A stretch of 64,000 nt of DNA from Actinomycetota bacterium (GTDB taxonomy: Bacteria > Actinomycetota > Actinomycetes > S36-B12 > CAIYMF01), in the NCBI GenBank assembly GCA_020161245.1, contig JAIUOK010000019.1:1-64000 (forward strand). Direction: 5' to 3'. The translations under genes were made by a program, and so were the position numbers. A model generated the notes under the pieces. It made no database searches, was not told where the DNA came from, and was given only the letters and a program-made list of their open reading frames with translations. Positions 21,295 through 22,576 of this stretch are shown here, one piece after another (the stretch's first letter is position 1; every line of letters begins with the position of its first letter).

Positions 21295-21309
21295 CCCCCA
21301 GGCCGCCGA

Positions 21310-21416
21310 GCTGGGGGTTGATTCGCGTCGTAGGGAGCGCGATCCGACCCCCAACTCGAGAAGCCCGGTAGTTGGGGGTTGATTCGCGTCGTAGGGAGCG
21401 CGATCCGACCCCCAAC
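21310..21416 (+). repeat. Palindromic repeat pair upstream of the nuclease gene (2 x 46 bp, 61-bp period)
   Basis: Two units, 21310-21355 and 21371-21416, are separated by a 15-bp spacer. Each can fold: TTGGGGGT...ACCCCCAA outer stem, CGCG inner stem and a central GTCGTAGGG loop region. The units differ only in the second base (C/T). Reverse strand reads GTCGGATCGCGCTCCC. They lie between the Lrp gene and the nuclease gene at 21509. A matching pair is downstream. Confidence 0.97.
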
Positions 21417-21508
21417 CGCCTGGACTGCTGATCCAGATCCGGCGCGTCGTCCACAGCCAGCGTCCGCTGCGACGCCGTCGCGTCGTCGGCGGAGGCGACG
21501 GTTCCGGC

Positions 21509-22468
21509 ATGTCTGGACGTACCCGCCCCCTTCAGAGCATCCCCGGGCTCTTCGAGGTCGCCGACCGGCAGTGCGCAGTCGTGCATCGAAGCCAGCTCGC
21601 TGAACTGGGCGTGACGCGCCACCACGTGCGGCGCCAGCTGCAGGCGCAGCGCTGGCAGGCGGTGGGGCCACGCGTCATCGTCGTCATCACCGGTGTGCTC
21701 ACACCGGAGCAGGAGCGGTGGGTCGGCCAGCTCCACGTCGGGCTCGACTCGGTCCTGCATGGCCGTACTGCGCTGGAGCACTCGGGGTTGGTCGGGTGGG
21801 AGGTCTCGGCCGTCCACGTTGCCAGCGGCCACGACGACCGGGTTCCCCGGCTCGAGGGCGTCGTGCGCCATCGGATCCGCACGCTGGACGAGGCCGAGGT
21901 GCGCCTGGTCCGCGGCCTCAGGTGCCACACGCCGGCCCGGGCGGCGATCGAGGCGGCTGCGGCCGAGCGCAACGCGAGGGCTGCGGCGGGCCTGGTGGTC
22001 GCAGTCGTGCAGCAGCGGCTCACGACGGCTGCCGAGATCCTCCGGTGCCTCGACCGCACTCCGCTGGTCCGCCACGCTCAGCTGCTGCGCGTGACCGCGT
22101 CCGACGCCGCCTCGGGCAGCGAGTCGGTCACCGAGGCCGACGTCCTGCGTCTGCTGCGGCGCGCAGGTCTCCCCGAACCGCGTCGGCAGGTGATCATCCC
22201 GACGCCGGAGGGGGACCGCCGCTACGACCTCGTGGCCGACCTTCCCGACGGCAGCTTCCTCGTTGTCGAAGTGGACGGCCCGCACCACCTCGATCCCCGG
22301 GTCGCTGCGGCAGATGCGGCCAAAGACGCCGCGGTGCTTGCTGCCGGCGGCCGGACGCTGCACATCCCGTGGTACCTGGTGCGCTCGGACGCGGATCGCA
22401 TCGTGCGGCAGCTCGAGGCCATCTGGCAGGCGGCTCGTGCCCGAGCTGGGGGTCGATACGCGTCGTAG
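21509..22468 (+). CDS. AbiEi-like HTH plus DUF559/Vsr-type nuclease domain protein
   Basis: This is a 319-residue protein. The N-terminal 60 residues (VVHRSQLAELGVTRHHVRRQL) form an AbiEi-antitoxin-like winged helix. The C-terminal domain (SVTEADVLRLLRRAGLPEPRRQ, YDLVADLPDGSFLVVEVDG, HIPWYLV) matches DUF559, a Vsr-like PD-(D/E)XK fold. Candidate catalytic residues are Asp240, Glu254 and Asp256, followed by GPHH. Actinobacterial databases often label such proteins as AbiEi family, but no toxin gene is adjacent. It is bracketed by two palindromic repeat pairs, and its last codons and TAG lie inside the third repeat unit. It interrupts an otherwise metabolic block, suggesting insertion. Function unknown. 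Confidence 0.8.
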   Translation: MSGRTRPLQSIPGLFEVADRQCAVVHRSQLAELGVTRHHVRRQLQAQRWQAVGPRVIVVITGVLTPEQERWVGQLHVGLDSVLHGRTALEHSGLVGWEVSAVHVASGHDDRVPRLEGVVRHRIRTLDEAEVRLVRGLRCHTPARAAIEAAAAERNARAAAGLVVAVVQQRLTTAAEILRCLDRTPLVRHAQLLRVTASDAASGSESVTEADVLRLLRRAGLPEPRRQVIIPTPEGDRRYDLVADLPDGSFLVVEVDGPHHLDPRVAAADAAKDAAVLAAGGRTLHIPWYLVRSDADRIVRQLEAIWQAARARAGGRYAS

Positions 22469-22551
22469 AGAGCGCGATCCGACCCCCAACGCGGGAGGCT
22501 CGCAGGTTGGGGGTCGATACGCGTCGTAGAGAGCGCGATCCGACCCCCAAC
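22445..22551 (+). repeat. Palindromic repeat pair downstream of the nuclease gene (2 x 46 bp, 61-bp period)
   Basis: Units 22445-22490 and 22506-22551 have the same 15-bp spacing as the upstream pair. They differ from it at three internal positions (TTGATTCG versus TCGATACG, TAGGGAG versus TAGAGAG). Within the pair the units differ only in the second base. The hairpins also sit between convergent genes (nuclease + and kamA -), so they could double as a bidirectional terminator. Confidence 0.97.
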
Positions 22552-22576
22552 TCGAGGGGGGTGAGAGGGATGCGGG

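Follow-up and report, generated by a model that had tools for sequence, protein, structure and literature searches.

REP-like palindromes rank among the most frequent non-coding repeats in bacteria and, to our knowledge, RAYTs (TnpA-REP) are their only known dedicated partners. The locus described here resembles the REP/REPIN and RAYT systems in that short palindromes are dispersed and form pairs of fixed geometry, in that a gene of single or few copies is flanked by its cognate repeat, and in that several repeat–gene lineages occur per genome, the repeat type matching the gene lineage. It differs from them in its enzyme, a Vsr-like PD-(D/E)XK nuclease with an AbiEi-like part and without an HUH/Y1 domain, in the size of its repeats (approximately 48 bp, with long stems) and in the tandem direct pairs found in its clade. 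The CGTC-tagged REPs of alpha-Proteobacteria are likewise dispersed palindromes, of other sequence and size than the repeats studied here, and have been reported without a dedicated transposase (PMC3733652). In a survey of TnpA-Y1 proteins, the Actinobacteridae had subclass 1.1 only, despite their large genomes (PMC6006769).

Vsr-like catalytic domains also occur in mobile genes, an example being the homing endonuclease I-Bth0305I (EDxHD). DUF559 proteins, which share the Vsr-like fold, are usually annotated as unknown or mismatch-repair-like. The DUF559/Vsr-like proteins described so far (NGO0050, Caulobacter VsrA, Vsr) have been studied as mismatch-repair-like nucleases rather than as repeat partners, and a Caulobacter DUF559 protein caused DNA damage in vivo (PMC12907096). 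AbiEi proteins, the antitoxins of the type IV toxin–antitoxin system AbiE, are known to bind inverted repeats (PMC7319586).

Here we describe a nuclease gene bracketed by two pairs of palindromes in a 64,000-nucleotide stretch of an Actinomycetota genome, the whole of which is called the window. We consider it probable that these palindromes are a REP-like family with its own dedicated nuclease, analogous to REP/RAYT and with an unrelated enzyme. This suggests that bacteria evolved a second type of repeat-and-enzyme partnership independently. Within an open-access library, no paper was found that links a DUF559/Vsr-type nuclease to palindromic repeats or that describes such a REP-type partnership involving a non-homologous enzyme.

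Results and Discussion

Nuclease gene and protein structure

The nuclease gene (positions 21509–22468, forward strand) encodes a protein of 319 amino acids, for which a structure was modelled with AlphaFold2 from an alignment of 38 homologues (mean pLDDT 94.5). Residues 6–201 (21524–22111) adopted an AbiEi antitoxin-like fold, consisting of a winged helix–turn–helix and a second domain, with AbiEi of Streptococcus agalactiae as the best match (6y8q, Z 12.8); the N-terminal part also matched the AbiEi antitoxin profile of PADLOC (1.4e-11). Residues 204–311 (22118–22441) formed a PD-(D/E)XK nuclease domain that matched 3hrl (NGO0050; Z 11.8), I-Bth0305I (Z 11.7) and Vsr (Z 10.2). Profile and fold thus agree with the first-pass annotation, which had proposed an AbiEi-like HTH and a DUF559/Vsr-like nuclease domain from the sequence. 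In Pfam, DUF559 was not significant for the window protein itself, and a paralogue (L053) scored above the curated cut-off for PF04480 (DUF559). Residues E209, D240 and H260 were conserved without exception in the 38 homologues, and E254 and D256 in >90% of them, the pattern expected of an active Vsr-type nuclease, as which the protein is predicted to function.

The protein has the fold and catalytic residues of the known DUF559/Vsr-like nucleases, from which it differs by its additional N-terminal part. Compared with AbiE systems, the AbiEi-like part is fused to a nuclease, and no AbiEii toxin gene was present beside the window gene, whose neighbours encode an Lrp-type regulator and KamA. The gene resembles that of I-Bth0305I in carrying a Vsr-like catalytic domain; it differs in lying outside any intron and in being flanked by dispersed palindromes. 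Membership of the RAYTs was rejected because the defining HUH transposase is missing; Pfam gave no Y1 transposase match for the window protein.

Palindromes at the locus

Two tandem pairs of palindromes, both with a period of 61 bp, enclosed the gene. The upstream pair consisted of unit A1 (21309–21356, with a 44-bp core at 21311–21354) and unit A2 (21370–21417, core 21372–21415), the start codon following approximately 90 bp further on. The spacer between them (21357–21369) had letters that differed among loci while the period of 61–62 bp was retained. The downstream pair consisted of unit B1 (22444–22491, core 22446–22489), which contains the TAG stop codon of the gene (22466–22468), and unit B2 (22505–22552, 44-bp core 22507–22550). 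Within a pair, the cores were identical except for the first base (C/T); between the pairs, exactly three further core positions differed. In all four units, hairpin folding was more favourable than in shuffled sequences (z −3.5 to −6.2). These data bear out what had been noticed at first, namely four palindromes in two tandem pairs of 61-bp period, alike within each pair and different at three positions between pairs, with the gene ending inside a repeat. The tetranucleotide GTAG, which is unpaired at the hairpin foot in REP/RAYT systems, was absent from this position in the window palindromes and was found in the loop only.

A TCCACAG motif was located upstream of the gene (21450–21456, position −59). 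It lay 59–60 bp 5' of the start in most close homologues and 85–97 bp before the matched start in others, and it recalls either a promoter element or the core of a DnaA box. Elsewhere in the window, at 2560–2601, a near-perfect palindrome (TGGTAGTCGGATCGCGCGGCAGAGCGCGCGATCCGACTACCA) shared the GTCGGATCGCGC core and had unlike outer bases.

Repeat families and their genes

The palindrome pattern of the window occurred at 41 places in its own 4.29-Mb genome, on both strands and many contigs, and was absent from the 16 other genomes of the family. A reversed pattern used as a control had no matches, so the 41 matches are not due to chance. The same genome encodes two paralogues (C33 and C59) with 48–49% identity to the window protein. 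Their flanks carried an unrelated palindrome, TTTGGATGGGTGA-N20-TCACCCATCCAAA, which was found at 69 places in this genome and at none in the 16 others; at the C59 copy, the contig end cuts the downstream unit after its first bases. A third palindrome was present in pairs on both sides of a nuclease gene in a genome of another genus (G013), where it occurred at 16 places, four of them belonging to the gene itself, and it was absent from the other genomes. A fourth type, with the motif TGAATGTGCCCC...GCGCTAG, made up the mostly inverted flanks of a distant gene clade. It had 14–46 matches in each of the six genomes that carry a gene of this clade (G000, G001, G004, G006, G007 and G009), none in ten others and three in G014, a genome that is 72% complete (Fisher p 0.0006). 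Co-variation of repeat and gene, which had been put forward for examination, was therefore found for the window gene, for its paralogues at 48% identity with a different repeat, and for the third and fourth families with their own gene clades; no case of abundant repeats in a genome lacking any such gene was encountered.

The association also held across gene copies. For 36 copies with enough sequence, the upstream and downstream sides were compared within 350 bp (score at least 40). Both sides shared a repeat in 30 of the 36 copies, in comparison with 1 of 107 control intervals from the same loci; a control with mismatched flanks was also run. Flanking repeats are thus the rule for this gene rather than the exception. 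Within 350 bp, six copies lacked a strong repeat common to both sides; one of these (L074) had it 446 bp downstream. In another copy (L064), the nuclease gene was shortened (513 bp matched) and still bracketed by direct palindromes, possibly representing a decaying element.

The flanking repeats varied from gene copy to gene copy. In a tree of 39 copies, sister proteins from different genomes had similar repeats, whereas distant paralogues within one genome had dissimilar ones. When the upstream repeat of one copy was compared with the downstream repeat of another (score 40), this score was reached by 8 of 13 cross-genome pairs with >60% protein identity and by 14% of the 56 pairs with 45–60% identity. 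It was reached by none of the 642 cross-genome pairs below 45% identity and, within genomes, by none of the 28 pairs below 60% (permutation: 0 of 2000). The identity of a repeat therefore tracks the gene lineage rather than the genome.

IS elements are known to insert into REP sequences (PMC1525189), and the nuclease gene might similarly be an opportunist that entered repeats spread by another system. Insertion into foreign repeats was rejected because a gene lineage keeps its repeat type from genome to genome, whereas paralogues of the same genome have different types; repeats were also lacking where the gene clade was absent, and we regard this explanation as highly improbable.

The palindromes could instead be operators of an autoregulated nuclease whose AbiEi-like domain represses its own promoter, with the dispersed copies representing a regulon or protective bound sites that the protein does not move. 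AbiEi antitoxins autoregulate via inverted repeats (PMC7319586), the distance from the upstream palindromes to the gene is rather constant, and the TCCACAG motif is placed at −59/−60. Repeats are, however, present downstream of the gene as well, there are tens of pairs with fixed geometry, and relatives without the gene have no repeats. A regulon is also not expected to produce short paired units with unrelated spacers in many places. Autoregulation alone is insufficient to account for the downstream repeats, the pairs and the dispersal, and we consider the operator explanation unlikely.

The window protein had no tblastn match in plasmids, the window palindrome had only a weak 28-base match in phages, and a scan of genome contigs with the back-translated motif found eight relatives only.

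Geometry of the repeat pairs

Tandem arrays contained 28 of the 41 window-type palindromes. Neighbouring units (n = 15) were spaced by 61 bp in 13 cases and by 62 bp in two, and the spacer sequences differed between loci. The G013 palindrome, although unrelated in sequence, also formed tandem direct pairs, with a period of 59–61 bp. The short gene-free units of the distant clade were inverted pairs with a start spacing of either 65–66 bp (12 cases) or 76–78 bp (nine cases), two classes that are 11 bp, or approximately one helical turn, apart; a few pairs had longer spacings (98, 122, 123, 133 and 155 bp). In G007, the spacers of the inverted pairs were mostly unrelated in sequence. That the spacing is fixed and the spacer sequence variable suggests a protein holding on to two repeats in double-stranded DNA. 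Because pairs may have been copied whole, the individual cases are not independent of one another. The inverted pairs L148–L167 fell into two length classes of 108–109 bp and 119–121 bp. One pair (L165) retained the internal CCCCCGCTCGTCCACAG stretch of a gene-bearing element, as would a deletion derivative of such an element, which is what its sequence may indicate.

This geometry bears on another explanation, according to which the locus is a classical transposon with MITEs as its short non-autonomous derivatives, the DUF559-type protein being the transposase and the hairpins the ends, with nothing specific to REPs. The inverted ends that surround the gene in the distant clade would fit, as would its gene-free inverted pairs of 108–121 bp, one of them with internal element sequence. 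In the clade of the window, by contrast, the gene is flanked by tandem pairs that are direct or self-palindromic, unlike terminal inverted repeats, and units are also dispersed singly. Neither a DDE nor an HUH domain was found, and no target-site duplications were seen by eye in flanks that are strongly diverged between species. A classical transposon seems to us an improbable description, if marginally less so than operators, and its boundary with a REP-like partnership is partly a matter of wording.

The kamA–lrp site

In the window, the nuclease gene and its palindromes lie between a gene for an Lrp-type regulator and kamA. All 11 members of the genus have kamA, which in ten of them stands next to the Lrp-type gene in convergent orientation. 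The gap between the two genes was filled by a nuclease gene with palindromes in G000, G004 and G007 (1132–1282 bp). In the seven other members it measured 16–221 bp and contained neither the gene nor its repeats, so that the empty sites to be looked for in relatives do exist. At this site, G004 and G007 carry copies with 51% and 39% identity to the window copy, and the palindromes of these copies were unlike those of the window. Either the copies are old and have evolved fast or they arrived independently, and the tree supports neither over the other. Lone palindromes of unrelated sequence were observed in the gene-free gap of two members (L121 in G003 and L124 in G006), so this convergent intergenic site may favour palindromes in general. 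Among the loci compared, no excision product was identified and no repeat was caught moving.

Proposed mechanism

The REP/RAYT-like partnership suggested by the first-pass annotation gained support from the dispersal, the co-variation and the empty sites; by inference, the nuclease would move or maintain the repeats. These observations, together with the association of gene and repeat, the lineage matching, the patchy presence at kamA–lrp, the pair geometry and the nuclease fold, can be read as follows. The AbiEi-like part would bind its cognate palindrome in double-stranded form. It would probably do so as a dimer or by engaging two units simultaneously, as suggested by the constant spacing within repeat pairs and by the known binding of AbiEi to inverted repeats. 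The Vsr/DUF559-type domain would nick or cut beside the repeat or at the target, as its fold and conserved catalytic residues suggest. Repair of the break could then copy single repeats or repeat pairs to a new place and, rarely, the whole repeat–gene–repeat unit. The protein could also bind the repeats for some other purpose. Its present-day role may be either selfish spread or a domesticated function for the host.

DUF559 genes in other phyla

Palindromes of the CCCTCTCCC type are abundant in such proteobacterial and Deinococcus genomes as are considered here, and we know of no explanation for their source. DUF559 genes of Caulobacter, Azospirillum, Sphingobium, Sphingomonas, Deinococcus and Neisseria were flanked by CCCTCTCCC-type palindromes or by other repeats; the CCCTCTCCC-type flanks were observed at alpha-proteobacterial and Deinococcus loci (L049, L050, L051, L052, L131, L132, L133 and L134). 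In Sphingomonas parapaucimobilis, the gene had a gene of the NAD(P) transhydrogenase operon on each side. The Neisseria gene (L130, 1453–1842) was identical to that of the solved structure 3hrl (NGO0050) in the part compared, and a repeat containing a CTCTCCC palindrome was present in direct orientation on either side of it. The DUF559 loci of Methylobacterium and Sinorhizobium had no clear two-sided repeat match.

We regard DUF559 genes of other phyla as leads to further repeat partners, and a DUF559 gene as a lead to the partner of the CGTC-tagged REPs. It is a tentative proposal, to which we give slightly less than even weight, that the DUF559/Vsr-like nucleases form a further superfamily of REP mobilisers, independent of the first and spread across bacterial phyla, and that they include the missing partners of the CCCTCTCCC-type palindromes. 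A second type of enzyme in the same arrangement would open the origin of such repeats to testing and provide DUF559 proteins with a concrete substrate. The several repeat–nuclease pairs of unlike sequence within one genome amount to a natural experiment on specificity.
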